From: Akkermansia sp.
GTDB taxonomy: Bacteria; Verrucomicrobiota; Verrucomicrobiia; Verrucomicrobiales; Akkermansiaceae
Assembly: GCA_017937215.1 (NCBI GenBank)
Contig: JAGBDZ010000028.1
Coordinates: 1 to 64,000, forward strand
Reading direction: 5' to 3'
DNA length: 64,000 nt
Of the stretch, positions 29,852 to 56,021 are shown one piece after another (position 1 is the stretch's first letter; each line of letters starts with the position of its first letter). Both the position numbers and the translations under genes were made by a program. Below the pieces are notes generated by a model. That model was not told where the DNA came from. It did no database searches and was given only the letters and a program-made list of their open reading frames with translations.

Positions 29852-29880
29852 TTCACAAAGGCAGAAAAAATGTGTATGAT
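29852..29880 (+). promoter_or_regulatory. Promoter of lpxC-fabZ
   Basis: TTCACA (29852-29857) and TATGAT (29875-29880) are 17 nt apart. The -10 box overlaps the earlier in-frame ATGs, so the first ATG transcribed is probably that at 29894. Confidence 0.55.
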
Positions 29881-29893
29881 GCAGGTACGAGTT

Positions 29894-31213
29894 ATGGCTA
29901 CACGCATGCAAAAGACCCTCGCCAAGTGCACCTCCACCCTGGAGGGCACATCTCTGCACACCGGTCAGACGGTGAAGCTGATTATCAAACCCGCAGAGCC
30001 GAATACGGGCTTCAAGTTCCGCCGCATTGACCTGCCGGACAAGCCCTTCCTGGATGCCTCGGCCTCCAAGGTGCAGGCAGTGGAGCGCGCCACCACCATT
30101 GCAGATGGCGCGGTGAAGGTGCACACCGTGGAGCACATTCTCTCCGCCCTCACCGGCATGGGCGTGGACAACGCCATCATCGAGATGGATGCGAACGAAC
30201 CGCCCATCGGCGATGGTTCCGCCCTGCCCTATGTGGAGATGATTAAGAAGGCCGGCGTCGTGGAGCAGAACGCCCCGCTGAAGGTCTGGGAAATCCGCGA
30301 ACCCATCATGGTGGAAAACAAGAACGGCTCCACTATCGTCATCATGCCCTCCCGCGATTTTCGCATCTCCCTCACCGCCGTGGGGCCGAACGGGCGCGTG
30401 ACGCAGTATTTCGACAGCGTCATCACCCCGGAGACCTACGAGAAGGAACTTTCCAATTCCCGCACCTTCTGCTTCTACGAGGATATCCAGCCCCTGCTGG
30501 AGAAGGGGCTCATCCAGGGCGGCACGCTGGATAACGCCATTGTCATCAAGGGCGATGAATACCTCTGCGCCGGTGGTCTGCGCTTCCACAACGAATGCGC
30601 CCGCCACAAGGCCATGGACCTCATCGGCGACATCATCCTCTGTGGCCGCCGCATCATGGGCCACGTGATTGCCATCATGCCCGGCCACGGCATCAACACC
30701 CAGATGGCCGCCAAGCTCCAGCAGAAGTACGAGAGCATGGAGGCCAAGCGCCCGCAGCCCATCACCATTCCCAACGGCGAGGCTGTGCTCGACACGCTGG
30801 AGGTCATGAAGCTCCTGCCGCACCGTTTCCCCTTCCTCATGGTGGACCGCATCATCGACTTCGAGGGCGACCACAAGTGCATCGGCCAGAAGAACGTGAC
30901 CATGAACGAGCAGTTCTTCCAGGGGCACTTCCCCGGCCACCCGGTCATGCCCGGCGTGCTCCAGGTGGAAGCCATGGCCCAGGTAGCCTCCATCCTCATG
31001 CTCCGCATGCCGGAAAACATGGGCAAGATCGGCTACTTCATGAGCTGCGACAAGGTGAAGTGGCGCCGCCCCGTCGTTCCGGGCGATGTTCTCATCATTG
31101 AAACAGAGCTTACAAAGATGCGCGGTGCCATCGGTATGGCAACTGGCCGCTGTCTGGTAAATGGAGAGGTAACCTGCGAAGCTGAGCTGAAGTTCATGCT
31201 CTCCGACGCGTGA
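29894..31213 (+). CDS. lpxC-fabZ: Bifunctional UDP-3-O-acyl-N-acetylglucosamine deacetylase / 3-hydroxyacyl-ACP dehydratase
   Basis: This 439-residue fusion joins LpxC (about 1-290), which commits UDP-GlcNAc to lipid A, with FabZ (about 300-439), which dehydrates 3-hydroxyacyl-ACP. LpxC zinc ligands are visible in VHTVEH and HKAMDLIGD; FabZ shows LPHRFPFLMVDRI and GHFPGHPVMPGVLQVEAMAQ. The fusion is known in Bacteroidota and related phyla and couples two uses of hydroxyacyl-ACP. The start at 29894 is preferred because earlier ATGs at 29870-29879 fall in the promoter. A ribosomal cluster follows with its own promoter. Confidence 0.95.
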   Translation: MATRMQKTLAKCTSTLEGTSLHTGQTVKLIIKPAEPNTGFKFRRIDLPDKPFLDASASKVQAVERATTIADGAVKVHTVEHILSALTGMGVDNAIIEMDANEPPIGDGSALPYVEMIKKAGVVEQNAPLKVWEIREPIMVENKNGSTIVIMPSRDFRISLTAVGPNGRVTQYFDSVITPETYEKELSNSRTFCFYEDIQPLLEKGLIQGGTLDNAIVIKGDEYLCAGGLRFHNECARHKAMDLIGDIILCGRRIMGHVIAIMPGHGINTQMAAKLQQKYESMEAKRPQPITIPNGEAVLDTLEVMKLLPHRFPFLMVDRIIDFEGDHKCIGQKNVTMNEQFFQGHFPGHPVMPGVLQVEAMAQVASILMLRMPENMGKIGYFMSCDKVKWRRPVVPGDVLIIETELTKMRGAIGMATGRCLVNGEVTCEAELKFMLSDA

Positions 31214-36954: not shown

Positions 36955-37941
36955 ATGTTCAAGAACCTCCTTTTCGACTGGTCCGGCACGCTGTGCGATG
37001 ACCTGGCCCTCACCCTGGAAGCCACCAACTACGTGCTGGCCCAGTACGACCGCCCCGCCCTCACCCGCGAACAGTTCCGCGATGAGTTCCAGCTGCCCTA
37101 CCCGGATTATTACGCCCGCAAAACCCCGGAGGCCAAACTGGTCGATTTGGAGAAATACTACCGCCACGCCTTCGACAACGCCGTGACGCAGGTCACCATC
37201 ATCCCGCACGCAAAGGCATTTCTGGAGTTCTGCCGCAGCCGCGGCATCCGCTGCTTCATCCTCACCAGCATGGACCCCCGCGCCTTCGATGAGCAGGCCC
37301 GTTTCCTGGGGCTCAAAGACTATTTCGAGCATATCCACTCCGGCGTGCGCAACAAAGAGGAATACATCTACACCCTGCTGCGCCAGCACAACCTGAACCC
37401 CGCCGATACTGCCTTCATCGGCGACATGCAGCACGACATCAACGCCGCCCACTGCGCCGGCATCATCGGCATCGGCGTGCTCACCGGCTACAACAACGCC
37501 GCCCAGCTCTCCGTCTCCAACCCTGACCTCACTGTGCCCCACCTCGGCGCCCTGCAGAGCTTCATGGAGCGCAGCGGCACGGCCCCCGCAGCACCGGTGG
37601 CCGATACCATCCACATCAACGGACTGGAAATCAACTGCCACATCGGCGTTCCGGCGGAGGAACGAGCAGAGCCCCAGCGTCTGGTGGCCAACGTGAGCCT
37701 TACCCCCGCCACCACCTTCAGCAGCATGGGCGAAGAGCTGGAGCGCACCATCAACTACGATGCCCTGGCCCGCCACCTCATTGCCCTGGCGCAAGCGCAA
37801 CCCACCGTGCTGCTGGAAACCCTCTGCCACCGTCTGGCCACCGCCTGCGTGCAGGATTTCGGCGCCACAACCGCCACCGTGGAGCTGCACAAATTCATCC
37901 TGCCCTTCACCTCCTCCGTCTCCGTGCGCTGCACGGTGTAA
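36955..37941 (+). CDS. HAD-superfamily hydrolase fused to dihydroneopterin aldolase (FolB)
   Basis: This 328-residue fusion has an N-terminal HAD domain (1-205) and a FolB domain (218-328). HAD motifs are FDWSGTL (nucleophile D8; the usual D+2 is Ser10), ILTSMD, K134, and FIGDMQHD (D157, D161). FolB motifs are INGLEINCHIGVPAEERAEP, NYDAL (Y268) and ELHKFILP (K313). FolB cleaves 7,8-dihydroneopterin in folate synthesis. The HAD part could remove phosphate from dihydroneopterin monophosphate just before that step, but Ser at D+2 recalls phosphonatase-type HADs and leaves this open. It follows the previous gene by 11 bp. Confidence 0.85.
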   Translation: MFKNLLFDWSGTLCDDLALTLEATNYVLAQYDRPALTREQFRDEFQLPYPDYYARKTPEAKLVDLEKYYRHAFDNAVTQVTIIPHAKAFLEFCRSRGIRCFILTSMDPRAFDEQARFLGLKDYFEHIHSGVRNKEEYIYTLLRQHNLNPADTAFIGDMQHDINAAHCAGIIGIGVLTGYNNAAQLSVSNPDLTVPHLGALQSFMERSGTAPAAPVADTIHINGLEINCHIGVPAEERAEPQRLVANVSLTPATTFSSMGEELERTINYDALARHLIALAQAQPTVLLETLCHRLATACVQDFGATTATVELHKFILPFTSSVSVRCTV

Positions 37942-38210: not shown

Positions 38211-40340
38211 ATGCGAAAGAGTTCAATATATGCCATTTCCCTGTTGCTGTGCGGGGTAGCGGCAGCACAGATGCCAGGCAAAATGGCTACCTATGTGCAA
38301 GCCGAAAAAGCAGTTCTCGGGCAGGATAAGATTGTACGCAAGAGCATAGGCCACACCGAGGCCGTGCGCCACGTGACGGTGCGCTCCGCGGTGGAAGGCC
38401 GCCTGGTGAAGGCGCATTTCCAGGAAGGAGCCATCGTGAAGGAAGGCGACCTGCTGCTGGAGATTGACCCGCTGCGCTATGTGGCTGCAGTGGAGGAAGC
38501 CGAGGCCGCCATTGCCCAGCTCGATGCGCAGATCACCTACGCCACCAGCCGCTACAACCGCCTCAACACTCTGGCAGCCCAGCAGGCTGCTTCCCGCGAG
38601 GACATGGAAACTGCCAGGGCCGCCATGGAAGAGCTCAAGGCCCGTAAAGCCGGCGCCAGCGCCGAACTGGCTCGCGCCGCCAAAGACCTGGCTGACTGCA
38701 AAATTTACGCTGAAATCAGCGGTCGCATCGGTCGCCTGCCCAAGGGCGAGGGCAACTACATCACCCGCGGCGAGGCTATCACCACCATCACGCAGATGGA
38801 TCCCATCTATGTGCGTTTCCCGCTCAGCCAGAACGATGTGAATGGCATCTTCCGCGGGCCGAAAGAAATCGGCCACGTGACCGATGTGCAGCTGGTCACC
38901 GCCAATGGCCGCAACTACCCCGCCAAGGGTCGCATCACCATCGTGGATAACCAGCTCAGCGGCAGCACGGACTCCTACACCCTGTGGGCCGAGTTTGCCA
39001 ACCCGGATGAACTGCTGACCCACCGCGGCATCGGTGCGCTGTATGTAAGCCTGAACACCATGCGCGAAGTCTGCATGATTCCCCTCACCGCCGTGCACTA
39101 CGACACCAACGGCGCATTCGTCTACATCATCGATGCGGAAAACAAGGTATCCCGCCGCAATGTGACTGCCGGCACCGTGCAGGGCCGTCTGCAATCTATC
39201 TACGAGGGCATCCAGCCCGGCGAAATCGTCATCAGCGACGGTTCGCACAAGACCCGCCCCGGCGCCACGGTGCACCCGGTCTTTGCGGATGCAGCCATCG
39301 ATGAGCCCGGCTCTGCCCAGGGCGGCGAACTGGCCCCGGTGGAGGTAGAAGCCGCCACCGTGCGGGAAATGGCAGACCCCACAGTGCTGACCATTGAGAC
39401 AGCCCGACTGGAAGCCATCAACACTGTTGAACTGCGCCCGCTGGTGCAGGGTGTGCTGCAGGAGCGCAACTTCACCGAAGGTGAGCGCGTGCAGAAGGGG
39501 GCCGAGCTCTTCCACATCGACCCCACGCGCTACCAGGCCACAGTGGATGCCTGCCAGGCTGCTGTAGAGCAGCTGGACGTGAAAATAAACGATGCCCGCA
39601 CCAAGTATGAGCGCCAGCAGAAGCTCATGGAGGTGAACGCCAGCAGCAAGGACGACCTGGAAAACGCCCGCGCCACCCTCAACGAACTGCAGGCCGCCAA
39701 GGATGCCGCACAGGCTCGTCTGGCCGTGGCGCAGGACGACCTGGACCGCTGCGTGGTGAAAGCCCCGCTGGGAGGCCGCATCGGCCGCACACTCGTGTCC
39801 AAGGGCAACTACGTGACCGATATCAAGACCCCGCTGGCGCGTGTGGTGCAGCTCAGCCCCATCTATGCCCGCTTCCCGCTCAGTGAAAAGGATATCCTTT
39901 CCATCTACGGCAGTGCCGATAAGCTGGAGCAGCAGGCCGAGCTGACCCTCGTGACCTCCACCGGCCAGAAACTGCCCGAAAAGGGCCGCGTGGCCTTCTG
40001 CGACAATGAAATCCAGCCCGGCACCGGCACCCAGAATGTGTGGGCCGTATTCGAAAATGCAGACCACAGCCTGGCGCCCGGTGGCGTTATCACCGTACAA
40101 GTGCGCCGCAAGGCCGAATGCCCGGTGATGGGCGTGCCGGCGGATGCAGTGCTCACGGATACGAAAGGCAACTATGTATATGTAGTGAAACACAACCGCG
40201 CCCTGGTGCGCCGCATCATCTGCGGCAGCGTGGCAGAGGATGGCCGGGTGGCCGTTTTCTCCGGGCTGCTGCCGGGCGAGCAGGTCATCACCTCACACCT
40301 GGCAGACATGGAAGAAAACACCCCCGTGCAGGTCAAGTAA
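38211..40340 (+). CDS. Tandem-duplicated RND efflux membrane fusion protein
   Basis: This 709-residue protein has a signal peptide (MRKSSIYAISLLLCGVAAAQ) and contains two complete periplasmic adaptors end to end. Each copy (about 25-355 and 375-709) has its own barrel-sandwich half-motif (VEGRLVKAHFQEGAIVKEGD; VQGVLQERNFTEGERVQKGA), coiled-coil hairpin (QLDAQITYATSRYNRL; QLDVKINDARTKYERQ), second lipoyl half (ISGRIGRLPKGEGNYI; LGGRIGRTLVSKGNYV) and beta-barrel. Normal AcrA/MexA-like adaptors are about 380 residues, and six of them surround a pump trimer. Fusion would reduce this to three chains. The RND pump follows after 21 bp; no outer-membrane channel gene is present. Confidence 0.9.
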   Translation: MRKSSIYAISLLLCGVAAAQMPGKMATYVQAEKAVLGQDKIVRKSIGHTEAVRHVTVRSAVEGRLVKAHFQEGAIVKEGDLLLEIDPLRYVAAVEEAEAAIAQLDAQITYATSRYNRLNTLAAQQAASREDMETARAAMEELKARKAGASAELARAAKDLADCKIYAEISGRIGRLPKGEGNYITRGEAITTITQMDPIYVRFPLSQNDVNGIFRGPKEIGHVTDVQLVTANGRNYPAKGRITIVDNQLSGSTDSYTLWAEFANPDELLTHRGIGALYVSLNTMREVCMIPLTAVHYDTNGAFVYIIDAENKVSRRNVTAGTVQGRLQSIYEGIQPGEIVISDGSHKTRPGATVHPVFADAAIDEPGSAQGGELAPVEVEAATVREMADPTVLTIETARLEAINTVELRPLVQGVLQERNFTEGERVQKGAELFHIDPTRYQATVDACQAAVEQLDVKINDARTKYERQQKLMEVNASSKDDLENARATLNELQAAKDAAQARLAVAQDDLDRCVVKAPLGGRIGRTLVSKGNYVTDIKTPLARVVQLSPIYARFPLSEKDILSIYGSADKLEQQAELTLVTSTGQKLPEKGRVAFCDNEIQPGTGTQNVWAVFENADHSLAPGGVITVQVRRKAECPVMGVPADAVLTDTKGNYVYVVKHNRALVRRIICGSVAEDGRVAVFSGLLPGEQVITSHLADMEENTPVQVK

Positions 40341-40361: not shown

Positions 40362-43300
40362 ATGTTTTCACAATTCTTCATCTATCGTCCCAAGTTTGCC
40401 TTCGTCGTCTCCATCCTGATGATGCTGGCCGGTCTGCTCTGCCTGAGCAAAATGCCGGTTTCGGAATACCCGGAGGTATCGCCGCCCACCATTTCGGTGC
40501 GCATGACCTATGCCGGTGCCAGTGCCGAGGAAGTAGCCCAGGTGGTAGCCGCCCCGGTGGAAGAACAGCTCATCGGCATGGATGACCTGGAATACTTCTA
40601 CTCCTCCTGCGGCAACGACGGCTCCTTCAGCCTCACGCTTATTTTCCGCTCAGGCACGAATGACGACATGGCCATGGTGAACGTGTCCAACGCCATCAAG
40701 CGCGTGGAATCCAAGCTGCCCAGCGAAATCAAGCAGACCGGCTACGAAGTGCGCAAACGAAGCGGCGATATGCTCTGCTTCATCAACTTCATGTGCGATG
40801 AAAATAAGATGAGCATCCTCCAGCTCTCCAACTGGCTGCGCATGAATGTGAAAGACAAAATCTGCCAGGTGGACGGTGTTTCCAGCGCAGATATCATCCC
40901 GAGCCGCAACTACTCCATGCGCGTGTGGATGAACACCACCCGCATGAGCGCCATGAACATCACCCCCGCAGATGTGAGCGAGGCCATCAAGGCACAGAAC
41001 GTACAGGCCGCCGCCGGCTCCGTGGGCTCTGAAGACGTGCAGTCCTACGCCACTTTCAAGGTGACCGCCACCGGCCGCCTCAAGACCGCTGAAGAGTTCG
41101 GCAACATCATCGTGAAACGCGGTCAGAACGGCCACGTGACCAAGCTCAAGGATATCGCCACCGTGGAGCTGGGCGCTGAGAAGAACACCGGCTACAGCCG
41201 CCTCAACGGCATGGACAACGTGGGCATGATTATTCACCAGAATAACGATGCCAACGCCCTGGCCACCGTGGCCAAGGTGCAGGAGGCCATGAAGCAGATT
41301 GAAAAGAACTTCCCGGACGGCATGGAATGGCGCATGGGCTATGACCCGACCCAGGCCATCGATGCCACCATGGACGAAATCGTGGAGACACTGGTGGTAG
41401 CCCTGCTGCTGGTGGTGCTGGTTACCTACCTTTTCCTGCAGGACTGGCGCGCCACACTCATTCCGGCCATTGCCATTCCGGTTTCGCTGCTGGGAGCGTT
41501 CATGGTGATGTACCCGCTGGGCTACTCCATCAACGTGCTGACCATGTTCGGTCTCATCCTGGTTATCGGCTCCCTGGTGGACGACGCCATCGTGGTGGTG
41601 GAAAACGTGATGCGCATCATCCAGGAGGAGAAGCTCTCCCCGAAGGAAGCCACCATCAAGAGCATGAAGCAGATTACCGGTGCCATCATCGCCACCACCC
41701 TAGTGACCCTGGCCGTGTATGTGCCCATCGCCTTCTACGGCGGCATGGTGGGTGTGATTTACACCCAGTTCTCCGTGACCATGTGCGTGGCGCTCTGCAT
41801 CTCCACCATCAACGCCCTCACCCTCTCCCCTGCCCTCTGCGCGCTGATTCTGCGCCCGGCCGGCACCAAACCCAGCAAGGTGGCCACGGTCCTCTTCTGG
41901 CCGTTCAACTGGATTCTGGAAACAAGCCGCCGCATCTACCTGTGGGGAGCCGGTATTCTGGTGCGCCACGCCTGGCTCACCGTACTCTGCCTGCTGCTGG
42001 TGATTGGCGGCAACTACGTGTACTTTGCCGGCGCGCCTGACAGCTGGCACCAGCTCGTGGGCAGCAACAAGAAGCCCGCTACCGCCGGTGAGCTCAACCC
42101 GATGGCCCTGCTCGCACCGCCCGCGTTGAACAACTCGTTCATCCCCACCGAAGACAAAGGCAGTCTTTTCGTGATGGTGACCATGGAAGGCACCGCCACC
42201 GCCAAGCAGCGCACAGATAAAGTGATGCGCCAGATTGAGAAGCGAGTCATCGGCATGCCCGGGGTGGACATGGTGACCGCCCAGAGTGGTTACAGCTTCG
42301 TGAGCGGCTCCGGCGAACACAGCGGCATGATGATTGTGCTGCTCACCCACTGGAGCGAGCGCCAGGACCCCAGCATGCACGCCAGCCGCATTGCTGAGCG
42401 CATCAATGCCGCCTGCGCCGATATTCCCCAGGCCAGCATCATGGCCATGACCCCGCCCGCCATCCGTGGCCTGGGCATTGCCGGCGGTGTGAGCGCTGTG
42501 CTGCAGGTCTCCGGCGATGCCACGCCGCAGGACCTGGGCGTGGCCGTAAAAGAGGTTCAGGAGCGTCTCATGGCCCGCCAGGACCTCGTCTCCCGCACCC
42601 GCAGTGAGTACGATGCGGAAACCCCGCAGATTCACCTCGAAATCAACCGGGAGAAAGCCCAGTCGCTCAATATTCCGGTGGATACCATCTTCCGCACACT
42701 GCAGAGCGTGATGGCCTCGTCCTACGTGAACGATTTCACCCTGAACGGCTTCAACTTCAAGGTGCAGATTCAGGGTGGCACCCCCGACCGCCGCACGGCA
42801 GATGACATCCTGAACCAGATGGTGCGCAACGAGCGCGGCGAAATGGTGCCGCTCTCCGCCGTGTGCTCGCTCTCCTACCGCATGGGACCGGGCCGCTATA
42901 ACCGATTCAACCAGTACATGAGCGCGGATATCTCCGTGACCCCGGCCATGGGCGTGGGCTCCGGCCAGATCATGCAGCTCATCGAGCAGACCATTGCGGA
43001 CATGAATAAGGAGGAACGCGCCAAGGGCCGCGACCTGCTCTGGGAAGTCAGCTGGAAGGACCTCTCCTACCAGGAACGCCAGAACGATGGCAAAATCGGC
43101 CCGCTCATCGCCATGGCCATGCTCTTTGCCTACCTCTTCCTGGTGGCGCAGTATGAGAGCTGGACCACCCCGGTGCCGGTGATGCTCTCCGTGAGCGTGG
43201 CCACCATGGGTGCGCTCATGGGCGCCCAGCTCTTCGGGCTGAGCATGTCCATCTACGTGCAGCTGGGTCTGCTCATGCTCATCGGCCTGGCGGCCAAGAA

Positions 43301-43616
43301 CGCCATTCTCATGGTGGAATTCAGCAAGGAAAACCACGAGGAAGGAGTGCCGGTAAAGCAGGCCGCCCTCAATGGCGCCGGCATGCGCTATCGCGCCGTA
43401 CTCATGACCGCCGTATCCTTCCTCTTCGGCGTATTCCCGCTGGTGGTAGCCTCCGGCTCCGGTGCAGCCAGCCGTATCGAAATCGGCGTAACCACCTTCT
43501 TCGGCATGTTGCTGGCTACCATCTTCGGTATCTTCATGGTGCCGGGGCTCTACTCCGTATTCGCCCGCATGCGCGACTGGACCGCCTCCAAGGTCCGCGG
43601 CGAAAAACTGCCGTAA
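40362..43616 (+). CDS. RND multidrug efflux transporter (HAE1/AcrB type)
   Basis: This 1084-residue protein has 12 membrane helices, two large periplasmic loops and the proton-relay aspartates in GSLVDDAIVVVENVMR (near residue 410). FIYRPKFAFVVSILMMLAGL opens the protein and PVSEYPEVSPPTISV follows, as in AcrB/MexB. It is about 35 residues longer than AcrB. An insertion near 555-590 (SWHQLVGSNKKPATAGELNP) lies in the second periplasmic loop. It exports hydrophobic compounds using the proton gradient together with the tandem adaptor upstream and an unlinked TolC-like channel. Confidence 0.95.
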   Translation: MFSQFFIYRPKFAFVVSILMMLAGLLCLSKMPVSEYPEVSPPTISVRMTYAGASAEEVAQVVAAPVEEQLIGMDDLEYFYSSCGNDGSFSLTLIFRSGTNDDMAMVNVSNAIKRVESKLPSEIKQTGYEVRKRSGDMLCFINFMCDENKMSILQLSNWLRMNVKDKICQVDGVSSADIIPSRNYSMRVWMNTTRMSAMNITPADVSEAIKAQNVQAAAGSVGSEDVQSYATFKVTATGRLKTAEEFGNIIVKRGQNGHVTKLKDIATVELGAEKNTGYSRLNGMDNVGMIIHQNNDANALATVAKVQEAMKQIEKNFPDGMEWRMGYDPTQAIDATMDEIVETLVVALLLVVLVTYLFLQDWRATLIPAIAIPVSLLGAFMVMYPLGYSINVLTMFGLILVIGSLVDDAIVVVENVMRIIQEEKLSPKEATIKSMKQITGAIIATTLVTLAVYVPIAFYGGMVGVIYTQFSVTMCVALCISTINALTLSPALCALILRPAGTKPSKVATVLFWPFNWILETSRRIYLWGAGILVRHAWLTVLCLLLVIGGNYVYFAGAPDSWHQLVGSNKKPATAGELNPMALLAPPALNNSFIPTEDKGSLFVMVTMEGTATAKQRTDKVMRQIEKRVIGMPGVDMVTAQSGYSFVSGSGEHSGMMIVLLTHWSERQDPSMHASRIAERINAACADIPQASIMAMTPPAIRGLGIAGGVSAVLQVSGDATPQDLGVAVKEVQERLMARQDLVSRTRSEYDAETPQIHLEINREKAQSLNIPVDTIFRTLQSVMASSYVNDFTLNGFNFKVQIQGGTPDRRTADDILNQMVRNERGEMVPLSAVCSLSYRMGPGRYNRFNQYMSADISVTPAMGVGSGQIMQLIEQTIADMNKEERAKGRDLLWEVSWKDLSYQERQNDGKIGPLIAMAMLFAYLFLVAQYESWTTPVPVMLSVSVATMGALMGAQLFGLSMSIYVQLGLLMLIGLAAKNAILMVEFSKENHEEGVPVKQAALNGAGMRYRAVLMTAVSFLFGVFPLVVASGSGAASRIEIGVTTFFGMLLATIFGIFMVPGLYSVFARMRDWTASKVRGEKLP

Positions 43617-50846: not shown

Positions 50847-53800
50847 ATGAAAACACACCTTCCCATGGCACTTCGCAAGGCGCTTCTGGCAGCCATCGTA
50901 GCCGTATCGGCATTCGTATATAACAAAGCTCATGCAGCGGAGTTAACAAATATGAAAGACGATGAAAAGAACGTGGAATCGCTTACAGAAACAACCGACA
51001 TTCAGGCTACGCTGGATAACTCCACTCTGAACTCCAAGGGCGCCGTAAGTATAGGTGACCCGGCAGATAACGCAACGGAGAGTGACACCCTCACGCTCAA
51101 GAACGCCTCAGCCCTGATTTCCGGAGGACCGCTCACGATTAATCAGAACGCGGTAGTAAGTTCCTCAGGTCTTGAAAGCGCCGGGAACATGCAGGTTAAT
51201 GGGACACTTACAGGTAATGGGGCAAACTTAAAAACAACTTCCGGCGGCAATGTCGTCATCGACATATTAGCAGCGACAGAAACAAAATATAACACGACTG
51301 AGGATCTGGTCGTGGACTCCGACAATGAATTTCGAAACAACTCTACAGGAAAAGAGCTTCGACTGGTTGATGCCAGCATCAATACAGGCAGTCACTTCAT
51401 TGTCGGCAGTGCCGATACAGCAGACGACGCAAATCTCCTGTATTTCAAAGGGACAGGCACCACAAACGTTCTCACTGGAGGTAACCTCGAAGTTTATCAG
51501 AGCCTGACAGTTGGGCCGGGCCTTGACGAAGGCGAAACCGGAGCCGGAACGGGGTTGACCTCTGTCGGCAAGGCGACAGTAACAGCCGAAGGCTTCATCA
51601 AGGTCAAAGGTAACACCTTTACCGTTACGGAAGGAATTGAAAAAACAGGGGATACACAGACAACCAATCAGACACTGTTTTCCGCAAAAAGCGACATAGA
51701 CGTAGACGCATCGCAGGCCATCAAAATTGCAGGTGATTCCCTTGTGAAAAGCGACGAAGGGAATGTTACCCTGAATGCGCTCGATGAAAATGGCGAGACG
51801 GATGGGAATGTCAACATGTCCGGCTCAGTCCAAGCCGCGCAAGGTTTTGTAAAAATCACGTCTGCTGATAACAGGTTAATAGGGCATGGGAAGTACAGGG
51901 CTTCTGTTTCAGCCAAACAACAGGTCGAGATTAGCATCCCGGCTGAGGCGAAAGCAGAGAGTCGAGAAAACGTGCTGCACGAGAGCGATGTGTCCAGCAC
52001 GGATTCTTACGCATCCATCACAGGTGGAACCCAGGCGACACTTGCAGGCTCAACTGTTAGCGCCAAAACCGGGGCCGCCGTATCCAGTGAAACGGTAACG
52101 GTGGCTGGTTCAAGTATCAAAACAGAGCAAGGCACAGCCAGCATCAACGCAACAGATGAGAATGTTACTGTCAGTGTCAGCAGTGTGAGCAACCAAACCG
52201 GCAATGTCACGATTGCAGCCCAAAAGCTCACTATGATCGAGGCCTCGAGCATCAGCGGTTCTGCGGTAAATGTCAGCGGCCAGAGCAATATCATCTGTGA
52301 TGAATCCAGCATGGAGGCGGATTCCGGAATCACCGTGAACTCCACCGGCACATTGCACCCCTCCGCAGATGGCGCCACTCCGGGCGACGGCAATTTGGTC
52401 TCCCAAGCCACGCTCACAGCTCGTTCAGGAGATGTATTGATTTCGGCGGTACTGGGTAACAGCGTTGAGAAAGCGTCCAAAATAAAAGCAGAAGCAGGTT
52501 CCGTGACACTCCGGGGCAGCACCGTCAACCTGATAACAGGAGACCAGACGGAAATAGTTGCCAACAATGGAGCCGTCACCATGGATGGCGGGGATACAGC
52601 AATCAACCAGATTTCCGGCGCGCTCATTACGGCTACGGATAGTGATAGCTCCGATGATAAGAAGCTCGGCACTGTTGATATTAAAGGCAAGACCAACGTC
52701 ATTACAAATACGGAACAGGTAAAAGCAGCCAACGGCATCGCCATTAAGTCAACCGGCACAGCCACAAACGATGGTAATCTGATTTCAAATGCCTCGGTCT
52801 TGAACCAGAATGGTGATATCACCGTCACTGCGGTCTCTTCCAACAGAGTGACTGCCGGCTCTCAGCTGGTTTCCGAAAATGGGGGTGCCGCCATCATTGG
52901 CGCGCAGCTTAACCTGGTTGAGGGGAGCGATACGCAGGTGAAAGCAGTCAATGGCAACGCGACAATCTCTGCCGGAGAAACAGGGACCAATATCGTGAAC
53001 CAGGCCACAGTGCAGGCAACCGGCGACAATGGAGAAGCTCATATCAAAGGTAAAGCCAATGGTATCATTGCAGGAGCGAGCCTCAAAGGCCATGCCGGAG
53101 TCTCGCTGGAGGCTACCGGCACAGATGAATCCGATGGCAACCTCATTTCTGCTTCCACAGTGGAAAGCCATTCTGGTGATGTTTCAGTGACCGCCGTCCA
53201 TATCAACCGGGTCACCGGCAATTCAACGCTGCAATCTGAGAACGGCGCAGTCAGCATGGTCGGCAACGCCAATGTGATAGAAGGCAAATCCAAAATGCTT
53301 GCCTCTAAGGGCATCACCATCACCGCCGACAATGCAGCAGACGGAGCGGGCAACAGAATCACCGATGAGGGCACTGTAGTCAGCTCAACAGAAGACGATG
53401 TTGCGATTCTGGCAAAGAATGCCAATGTCGTGACCAACAAGGCAACGATTGAAGCCGGGAGCGGCTCCATCACTGTCGGAGAAAAAGACAGCACCTGTAG
53501 CAGCGTTGATAACTACATCGCCAACGGAGCCGCCCTGAAAGCCAAGGAAACTATCACCGTAGCCGGCGCCTACAATGAAATCACCAGCGCAAACGCAGCC
53601 ACGACAGACCGCACCACTCTCACGGCGGAAAAAGGAATCCACGTCAGCAACAACAGCATCATTCGTCACGCCACACTTCAGGCCACCGGTGAAAATGGGA
53701 CTATACTCATCACAACCGGCGCTGATGAGCAGACGTCCACGATTGATGGCGCGCACCTGCAGGCAAAAGGCGCAATCACCATAAAAGGCGATACCAGTTC

Positions 53801-56021
53801 CCGCACCGATGAATCAAACCTGGCATTCCTGACCGGCGGAACTGACCTTCTCATTCAATCTGAAGGCGCAGGTGTCACGCTCGACAATGTGAATGTGCTG
53901 AATACCGGAATGGAGAATCGCAACATCATTGCAATGAATGATGGTGACATCTCCATTCTTAACCGGGTGGATGTTCAGAACGGAGCCCTCACCATTAATG
54001 AAGGAGCCCGCAGCAGCGGGCGCATTGTGGTGAACACAGACGCCGTATTGAACCTGAAAAAAGATTCCACGCTGGCAGGCCGCCTGAGTGGCAACGGCGC
54101 TATCAACAAGTCCGGCGGCGATGAGCTTCTGCTCGACCTTGACCACACTGACTACACCGGCACTATCTATGCCAATGGGGCTGCTGGCGGACCGGCCGGC
54201 AGTGCGGCAGACGTGAATAACGAAGGCTCCTGGATTATGGTCACAGGAGCCGGAGTGGGTACCGACGCCAAAATGGTGCTGAAGAACACCGACCTGATTG
54301 TTGCAACCGGCGAAACGCAGATTGGCACGCTGGACACCACACAGGACGCCCAGGCCAACAATGCAGCCACAGGTGGCACCCTGGATGAGGAAAACCTGTA
54401 CACTTCCGATGAGCGGATGCGGGCTGACTTCAGGACCATCGGATCTGTGATTGAGGTGAACAAAGGAACTGCCGGCGACGTGGTGCATGCCACCGACATG
54501 AAGCTGAGCGATGCCACGCTGCTGAAACTTGATGTGGAGGTCAACAATGATGACTCAGTCATCTCTGACCGAATCGCCGCTACAGGCACGGTGAACGCAG
54601 CCGCCGCCACCGGGCTGAACAGCACCAGCACCGCCACTGCACCCAGCACCGCCCGCGTGTTTGCGAATCTCGATGCTGCCGCAGCAGCTTCTGCTGCCGA
54701 GGGAGCACGCACCACCATTCTGACCGGCACCCTGGCAGCGCCCATCAACGAAGACGTGCTCTACGAGGTGAAGAAGGCAACCAACGGAACCTACCAGCGC
54801 ACTCTGCAGGACCGCAACATGCACCTGGAAAACAAAGGCGACCGCGTGGACCTGGTGTTCAGTAAGAACTACCGCAGCGCAGCCAAGACTGCCCCCATGC
54901 AGAAAGTGGCCGACGCTATCCGCCAGTATTCCGATGCCTTCCACCACAGCGAGGGCTGGCTGGCCGCCAGCGATGACCGCATGGCGAAGCTGGTGGATGC
55001 TTTCGACTACACCCGCAGTGAAGCAGCTGCGCAGCGCGGCCTGCAAAGCCTGGCCGGCACGGGGAATGTGCTGCCCCAGCTCATGCTGTTCGACTCCAGC
55101 CGCCACCACCTGAACCAGCTGCGCAAGCAGATGGAGATGCCGGTGTGCCCCCGCACCTGGAAGGGTGCCCCCACCCGCAAGAGCAATGCCTGGCTCGCCT
55201 ATACCGGCGCTTACGACAGCCTGAACGGGGATGCCAATATGGGGGATTACACCCGCTCCGCCCACGGTGCCATGATGGGGGTGGATACCGCCCTGACCTG
55301 CAAGCTGCGCGCCGGCCTCAGCCTGGGTTACGAAACCGCCTCCGGTGAAGCAGACTCCGCCAAAGTGGATGCAGATACCATCTTTGTGGATGCTTACGCC
55401 ACTGGCCGCACAGGGAGCCTCAAGCACCGCGCCTCCATCGGTCTCGCCCTCACCAGCTTCGATGCGCGCCGCTCCGTGGAAGTGGAGGCAGGCTATCACA
55501 GTTTCCATGACTCTACCCGCAGCGACACGGATGCCCTCACCCTCAACTTCGGCTACGAAATCAGCTCCGATTACAAACTCAGTGAGCGCAGCTGGCTGAC
55601 CCGCTATGCCGCAATCAATCTGGCCTGGCATAATCTGGACGACATGAAAGAAAGCGGTCTTGGTGAAATTGGCCTGGTTTCTGAGTATGATTCGGAGTGG
55701 CAGGCGGGGGTGGCCGTGGGGCTGGCCTACAATCGTGAGTTTGCTGCGGTGAAGTACGAGGCGCCGGCGGTGTTCTCAGCCCATGCGGCCGTGCACTTTG
55801 AGCTGCTGGCAGATAAAGCCACGGTAAACAACCGATTCAGCGGGCTTGAAGGGAGCTGGGAGGCTCACAGCATGGACCGCGAGCAGCTCTACCTCGAGCT
55901 TGGAGTCGGCGTCATGGTGCCGCTTTCACCCGCCTGGACCGCCACGGCCGGTGCTGCGGTGGAGGTGGGAGCTGACCGCTCCGCATTCTCCGGAAATGTC
56001 GGTGTGCGCTACGCGTTCTGA
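50847..56021 (+). CDS. Giant autotransporter with repetitive beta-helix passenger
   Basis: This 1724-residue protein has a long signal peptide (about 1-31, ending in AHAA). The passenger (to about 1330) is built of short Ser/Thr/Asn-rich strands such as TVAGSSIKTEQGTASINA. A helical linker (about 1345-1430; FDYTRSEAAAQRGLQSLAG, PQLMLFDSSRHHLNQLRKQM) precedes a 12-strand-type barrel ending in VGVRYAF with terminal Phe. It is probably an adhesin or S-layer-like surface fibre. The passenger is poor in Cys and aromatic residues. It differs from the two autotransporters near 20 kb in passenger, linker and signal peptide, so it belongs to another subfamily. Confidence 0.9.
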   Translation: MKTHLPMALRKALLAAIVAVSAFVYNKAHAAELTNMKDDEKNVESLTETTDIQATLDNSTLNSKGAVSIGDPADNATESDTLTLKNASALISGGPLTINQNAVVSSSGLESAGNMQVNGTLTGNGANLKTTSGGNVVIDILAATETKYNTTEDLVVDSDNEFRNNSTGKELRLVDASINTGSHFIVGSADTADDANLLYFKGTGTTNVLTGGNLEVYQSLTVGPGLDEGETGAGTGLTSVGKATVTAEGFIKVKGNTFTVTEGIEKTGDTQTTNQTLFSAKSDIDVDASQAIKIAGDSLVKSDEGNVTLNALDENGETDGNVNMSGSVQAAQGFVKITSADNRLIGHGKYRASVSAKQQVEISIPAEAKAESRENVLHESDVSSTDSYASITGGTQATLAGSTVSAKTGAAVSSETVTVAGSSIKTEQGTASINATDENVTVSVSSVSNQTGNVTIAAQKLTMIEASSISGSAVNVSGQSNIICDESSMEADSGITVNSTGTLHPSADGATPGDGNLVSQATLTARSGDVLISAVLGNSVEKASKIKAEAGSVTLRGSTVNLITGDQTEIVANNGAVTMDGGDTAINQISGALITATDSDSSDDKKLGTVDIKGKTNVITNTEQVKAANGIAIKSTGTATNDGNLISNASVLNQNGDITVTAVSSNRVTAGSQLVSENGGAAIIGAQLNLVEGSDTQVKAVNGNATISAGETGTNIVNQATVQATGDNGEAHIKGKANGIIAGASLKGHAGVSLEATGTDESDGNLISASTVESHSGDVSVTAVHINRVTGNSTLQSENGAVSMVGNANVIEGKSKMLASKGITITADNAADGAGNRITDEGTVVSSTEDDVAILAKNANVVTNKATIEAGSGSITVGEKDSTCSSVDNYIANGAALKAKETITVAGAYNEITSANAATTDRTTLTAEKGIHVSNNSIIRHATLQATGENGTILITTGADEQTSTIDGAHLQAKGAITIKGDTSSRTDESNLAFLTGGTDLLIQSEGAGVTLDNVNVLNTGMENRNIIAMNDGDISILNRVDVQNGALTINEGARSSGRIVVNTDAVLNLKKDSTLAGRLSGNGAINKSGGDELLLDLDHTDYTGTIYANGAAGGPAGSAADVNNEGSWIMVTGAGVGTDAKMVLKNTDLIVATGETQIGTLDTTQDAQANNAATGGTLDEENLYTSDERMRADFRTIGSVIEVNKGTAGDVVHATDMKLSDATLLKLDVEVNNDDSVISDRIAATGTVNAAAATGLNSTSTATAPSTARVFANLDAAAAASAAEGARTTILTGTLAAPINEDVLYEVKKATNGTYQRTLQDRNMHLENKGDRVDLVFSKNYRSAAKTAPMQKVADAIRQYSDAFHHSEGWLAASDDRMAKLVDAFDYTRSEAAAQRGLQSLAGTGNVLPQLMLFDSSRHHLNQLRKQMEMPVCPRTWKGAPTRKSNAWLAYTGAYDSLNGDANMGDYTRSAHGAMMGVDTALTCKLRAGLSLGYETASGEADSAKVDADTIFVDAYATGRTGSLKHRASIGLALTSFDARRSVEVEAGYHSFHDSTRSDTDALTLNFGYEISSDYKLSERSWLTRYAAINLAWHNLDDMKESGLGEIGLVSEYDSEWQAGVAVGLAYNREFAAVKYEAPAVFSAHAAVHFELLADKATVNNRFSGLEGSWEAHSMDREQLYLELGVGVMVPLSPAWTATAGAAVEVGADRSAFSGNVGVRYAF
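52386..53490 (+). repeat. Three long internal repeats in the giant autotransporter passenger
   Basis: Units open at 52386, 52770 and 53133 with DGNLVSQATL, DGNLISNASV and DGNLISASTV. Each continues with a GD(V/I)-x-(I/V)-(S/T)-A segment, then N-(S/R)-V. Spacing is 128 and 121 codons. The copies are diverged in DNA, so recombination between them would be rare. Confidence 0.65.

Follow-up and report, generated by a model that had tools for sequence, protein, structure and literature searches.

Does the long open frame at 38211-40340 of this Akkermansia contig encode two genuine RND adaptors in one chain, and, if so, have the two halves taken different places in the pump? The window analysed here comprises 64,000 nucleotides of a draft assembly (genome G000, 2.48 Mb in 151 contigs). 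In pumps of the AcrA type one adaptor sequence serves two different pump sites, and the roles at each site are hard to separate by mutation because a single sequence fills both. A double adaptor, in which evolution appears to have separated the sites within one chain, offers a natural test of why AcrB-type pumps require a pair of adaptors for every subunit of the pump.

The double adaptor and its permease

The frame is open over 709 codons of the forward strand with no stop and contains the following features, all on that strand.

38211-40340, forward: double RND adaptor, 709 aa, with two complete HlyD/AcrA-type adaptors per chain (open frame, alignment of the halves, TIGR01730, model)
38211-38267, forward: predicted signal peptide, residues 1-19, MRKSSIYAISLLLCGVAAAQ, recognized by eye; helix 3-19 in the model
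38283-39290, forward: N-terminal adaptor half, residues 25-360 (TIGR01730 at 38334-39278; model)
38472-38693, forward: alpha-hairpin of the N half, residues 88-161, with the RLS tip motif R117, L121, S128
39291-39338, forward: linker that joins the two halves, residues 361-376 (361-372 with pLDDT below 50)
39339-40337, forward: C-terminal adaptor half, residues 377-709 (TIGR01730 at 39396-40334; model)
39525-39746, forward: alpha-hairpin of the C half, residues 439-512, with the RLS tip motif R468, L472, S479

The TIGR01730 (RND_mfp) profile matches the whole protein twice (E 5.6e-135, 449.4 bits against a cut-off of 94.9), and the halves scored separately reach 241.2 and 220.0 bits. Aligned to each other over 300 residues, they are 37% identical (193 bits, E 3e-63). 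An AlphaFold2 model, computed from an alignment of 52 sequences (mean pLDDT 87.2, pTM 0.73), gives each half the full set of adaptor subdomains, with hairpin helices at 88-123/129-161 in the N half and 439-474/480-512 in the C half; its top Foldseek matches are AcrA, MexA, and TMexC. Thus two complete adaptors in one chain, each with every adaptor subdomain, as claimed in an earlier sequence-only reading of this DNA, are borne out by the double profile match, the alignment of the halves, and the model. No canonical lipobox was seen by eye in the signal peptide region.

Homologues of about 700 residues with two such domains, which the same reading had proposed to look for, were found at 57 loci in a scan of 84,980 species genomes (49-94% identity); the titles of these loci are nearly all Akkermansia or Akkermansiaceae MAGs, and the hosts are mostly herbivores. 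Among 76 Akkermansia species genomes, 58 carry the fused form of ~700 aa, 17 have as their best match a single adaptor of ~380 aa instead, and one (G083) has no strong match. No fused copy was detected outside Akkermansia at E <= 1e-60 in a 387-genome sample of the phylum, and none on plasmids at 1e-40. Both halves are under purifying selection, with dN/dS among close relatives of 0.02-0.39 in each.

Two observations rule out a frameshift or a wrong join in the assembly near residue 360, which the earlier reading had named as a possible refutation: the frame of ~700 aa recurs in MAGs obtained independently from goat, sheep, yak, buffalo, cattle, roe deer, horse, rabbit, and chicken, and every one of the 52 aligned copies has 37-42 residues in the linker stretch G351-D389. 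An artefact of assembly or annotation, in which two adjacent adaptor genes were wrongly joined, might be feared in a draft of so many contigs, and yet has practically no chance of being the explanation when dozens of independent assemblies and hosts share the frame, the linker length is conserved, and frameshifts are absent. In two MAG copies (G029, contig C3, 28243-30360; G030, contig C122, 43957-46080) the double-adaptor frame contains one in-frame TAG each, which may reflect sequencing error, decay, or another reading of the codon. A triple fusion of two adaptors and a permease, hinted at by open frames of ~2050, was rejected, as the genes are separate.

The AcrB-type gene expected beside the adaptor is indeed adjacent, and it exceeds the TIGR00915 cut-off (1007.7 bits against 940.35).

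40362-43616, forward: 1084-aa RND permease of the AcrB/HAE-1 type that partners the double adaptor
42012-42134, forward: long TM7-PC1 loop, permease residues 551-591, specific to the double-adaptor permeases
42993-43025, forward: a further permease insertion specific to the clade, residues 878-888, located before TM8

The proton-relay residues D407, D408, K979, and R1011, which we take to be the counterparts of AcrB D407, D408, K940, and R971, are invariant in the permease alignment. The TM7-PC1 loop is 40-80 residues long in all 51 permeases that stand beside a fused adaptor; in other permeases it has 10 residues in 36 of 37 cases and 32 in the remaining one. This intermediate loop belongs to a permease from another family of the phylum (L127, 2027-5203), which has a single adaptor alongside. 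There is no outer-membrane channel gene beside the operon; OEP-family genes lie elsewhere in the genome, on contigs C63, C88, C55, and C68.

Origin of the fusion

In the single-adaptor species the adaptor gene lies immediately upstream of an orthologous permease gene (51-59% identity). In the adaptor tree all N halves form one clade (100/99) and all C halves another (100/100); the two clades are sisters (98/90) nested among the Akkermansia single adaptors, and the C stem is longer than the N stem (1.31 versus 0.69). In the DXS tree the 18 sampled fused species form one clade (100/99), whose sisters are G027 and then G012, both with single adaptors, in nearly the same order as in the adaptor tree. 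One species, G066, changes position: adaptor sequences place it beside the fused clade, whereas DXS groups it with the other species that have a single adaptor. Taken together, the adaptor tree, the synteny of the locus, and the nearly matching species order suggest, as the simplest history, that the adaptor gene at this locus underwent a single tandem duplication with fusion and was then inherited vertically.

By this phylogeny the duplication preceded the radiation of the fused clade of at least 58 species. The claim that the fusion is not recent thus holds for the single chain, but the chain was not assembled from two unrelated adaptors: such a fusion was rejected because the N and C halves are sisters inside the Akkermansia single adaptors, and the tree points to one gene duplicated in tandem. 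In sister single-adaptor lineages a short frame of ~155-171 aa, possibly a local regulator, lies just upstream of the adaptor (L043, 5654-6121; L044, 7910-8425; L120, 5152-5628); in the window no counterpart was seen next to the fused gene.

The fusion and the permease loop have one origin each, on the same stem. A link between them is plausible and unproven, since two traits that each arose once on one stem give a correlation of a single event. PC1 is the docking subdomain for the PAP1 adaptor (PMC6975555).

Asymmetry of the halves and the geometry of the pump

The AcrA RLS motif touches TolC, and it is intact in both halves of the double adaptor in at least 51 of 52 copies. The halves differ at positions that in AcrA serve the pump.

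38349-38351, forward: G47, N half, equivalent of AcrA G58 (binding box 1); G in 48/52 copies
39240-39242, forward: G344, N half, equivalent of AcrA G363 (binding box 9); G in 52/52
39402-39404, forward: A398, C half, changed equivalent of AcrA G58; A in 51/52, S in 1/52
40296-40298, forward: H696, C half, equivalent of AcrA G363, lost; G in 0/52

At the G58 equivalent, glycine is present in 48 of 52 N halves and all 20 single adaptors, but in none of the 52 C halves; at the G363 equivalent, in all 52 N halves, all 20 singles, and again no C half. The lysine equivalent to K366 follows the same pattern (52/52, 20/20, and 0/52), and the box 4 threonine is present in the C half of all 52 copies. 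In AcrA, the G58F and G363F mutants resemble an adaptor-free strain (PMC6975555). Over the whole membrane-proximal domain, identity to the Akkermansia singles is 21% for the C halves versus 38% for the N halves; outside this domain both halves are similarly identical to them. Since a circular-shift control reached the observed values in 28 and 50 of 338 shifts, the divergence of the whole domain is suggestive only, and the loss of individual residues is the stronger evidence of asymmetry.

The two adaptor positions meet the pump differently, PAP1 at PC1 and PAP2 at PN2 (PMC6975555; also PMC5404916). The idea that the halves could have specialized for the two sites finds sequence support here: they appear alike at the channel-docking tip and different at the pump side, with the RLS motif equal, and with the equivalents of G58 and G363 persisting in the N half but gone from the C half. 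From the 52 aligned copies one can read off which residues are needed by each half and which are dispensable to it.

The fusion could instead be structurally neutral, a link between interchangeable AcrA-like halves that sets only copy number or expression, with the differences due to drift. Engineered tandem AcrA dimers are functional according to the account of Xu et al. (2011) in PMC4446572, and the domain-level test of divergence is not strong; both would fit such a view. Drift would nevertheless have to remove the G363 and G58 equivalents from every one of 52 C halves, leaving RLS in place, while 52 and 48 of the N halves and all 20 singles kept them. It would also have to leave the N-C split standing while 58 species radiated and dN/dS stayed well below 1, and we regard neutrality as improbable.

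Less probable again, and in our view most unlikely, is a C half that acts as a modifier and stays off the pump, so that the ring would be three-fold or completed by another adaptor, with three adaptors and not a pseudo-six-adaptor arrangement. The absence from the C half of two pump-docking residues essential in AcrA would be accounted for in this way. The C half, however, retains the RLS motif, the box 4 threonine, and the full fold, and the model places its hairpin beside that of the N half in an OMF-like geometry.

The paired hairpins of the model superpose on a TolC protomer (9tg4_A; 1.7 A over 155 residues, Z 15.7), on CusC (4k34_A; 2.1 A, Z 16.4), and on TOprJ1 (9j3d_A; 2.2 A, Z 16.2), values to be read as support and not as proof, since long helical matches reach middling Z by chance. 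The superpositions support side-by-side packing of the two hairpins as in one TolC subunit. The internal repeat of that subunit gives six tips per trimer (PMC5404916), and the double adaptor would mirror it.

We therefore return to the specialized heterodimer: the adaptor of this tripartite HAE-1 pump is probably an obligate covalent heterodimer, with three chains per trimeric pump. An ancestral single adaptor gene was duplicated in tandem and fused, and three of the resulting chains would make up a six-adaptor ring on the trimeric pump, each presenting two side-by-side hairpins to one TolC-type subunit with its internal two-hairpin repeat. After the duplication both halves retained the channel-docking tip; the ancestral pump-docking residues stayed in the N half, while the C half altered its membrane-proximal domain and lost the two residues essential in AcrA. 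The permease acquired its TM7-PC1 loop at the same evolutionary step. We infer efflux activity and a 3:3:3 assembly in which each half occupies one of the two non-equivalent sites; it is a weaker guess that the C half occupies the PC1-facing (PAP1) site, next to the new loop, and the N half the PN2-facing (PAP2) site. The view of the ring as a trimer of dimers is favoured by the TolC-like double hairpin and by the 2:1 ratio that a single chain would fix.

Related systems and a second double adaptor

Both covalent and paired adaptors have precedents: the kind is already known from TriABC, from engineered AcrA and TriA-TriB fusions, and from the natural DSY0927. In TriABC-OpmH of Pseudomonas aeruginosa the separate adaptors TriA and TriB are 36% identical and both are required (PMC4338810, PMC13328181). 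The Akkermansia pump likewise has two different adaptors for one RND permease, diverged to a similar degree (37%), but they form one chain that arose by duplication within Akkermansia together with the permease loop. The copies seen contain one gene and not the separate adaptor genes of the TriABC type. The double adaptor is best read as a covalent heterodimer of the TriA/TriB kind.

That such a layout can function is indicated by man-made covalent dimers, namely the tandem AcrA constructs reported through PMC4446572 and the engineered TriA-TriB fusion. The latter is represented by PDB 6vej, a solved chain of 695 residues whose label names two RND adaptors from the TriABC transporter. The Akkermansia chain, in contrast, is natural, its halves being the product of duplication and divergence. 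DSY0927 of Desulfitobacterium hafniense is also a natural two-adaptor chain, but it serves a Gram-positive ABC transporter (PMC4446572, PMC4338810), its N half lacks the coiled coil, and its halves are of two types, whereas in the Gram-negative Akkermansia both are complete and of the RND type. Each half shares the fold and the RLS tip motif with the single adaptors AcrA, MexA, and MexC (TIGR01730), from which the chain differs in carrying two adaptors, in the loss of the G58 and G363 equivalents from its C half, and in the absence of a canonical lipobox.

Our literature searches turned up no previous account of an Akkermansia double RND adaptor. What is new is the combination of two full RND-type halves in a Gram-negative bacterium, their clade-wide occurrence, the asymmetric loss of docking residues, and the co-acquired permease loop. 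Efflux machinery thus differs between uncultured gut Akkermansia and the Akkermansia genomes with single adaptors, complete genomes being among the latter.

A second double RND adaptor, of 990 aa, is encoded on contig C104 of the same genome (L037, 6169-9141, reverse strand), upstream of a 1065-aa HAE-1 permease. It matches TIGR01730 twice and has an N-terminal lipobox-like LPAC. Its family, with copies of ~930-1060 aa, is present in most of the same Akkermansia clade and was not found as a fusion in the single-adaptor species. Its halves are each monophyletic and only ~27% identical to those of the 709-aa adaptor, and it is therefore a separate fusion. The permease loop is missing from this family, for which reason the loop as a general result of double adaptors was rejected; the G58 equivalent has not been lost in it either. 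We advance only tentatively, as an idea somewhat more likely to fail than to hold, that two RND pumps of one Akkermansia clade independently gained rings of three covalent heterodimers, and that the permease in the window changed along with its adaptor, whose C half, devoid of the box 1 and box 9 contacts, docks on the PC1-side loop instead. If true, such docking would represent a natural division of labour between the halves.

Other genes of the window also encode composite or large proteins. LpxC and FabA/FabZ-type domains share one 447-aa chain (29870-31213, forward; Pfam PF03331 and PF07977), and directly upstream of the double adaptor a HAD hydrolase is joined to FolB, a dihydroneopterin aldolase, in a chain of 328 aa (36955-37941, forward). 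Finally, a protein of 1724 aa (50847-56021, forward) ends in a C-terminal autotransporter beta-domain (PF03797).
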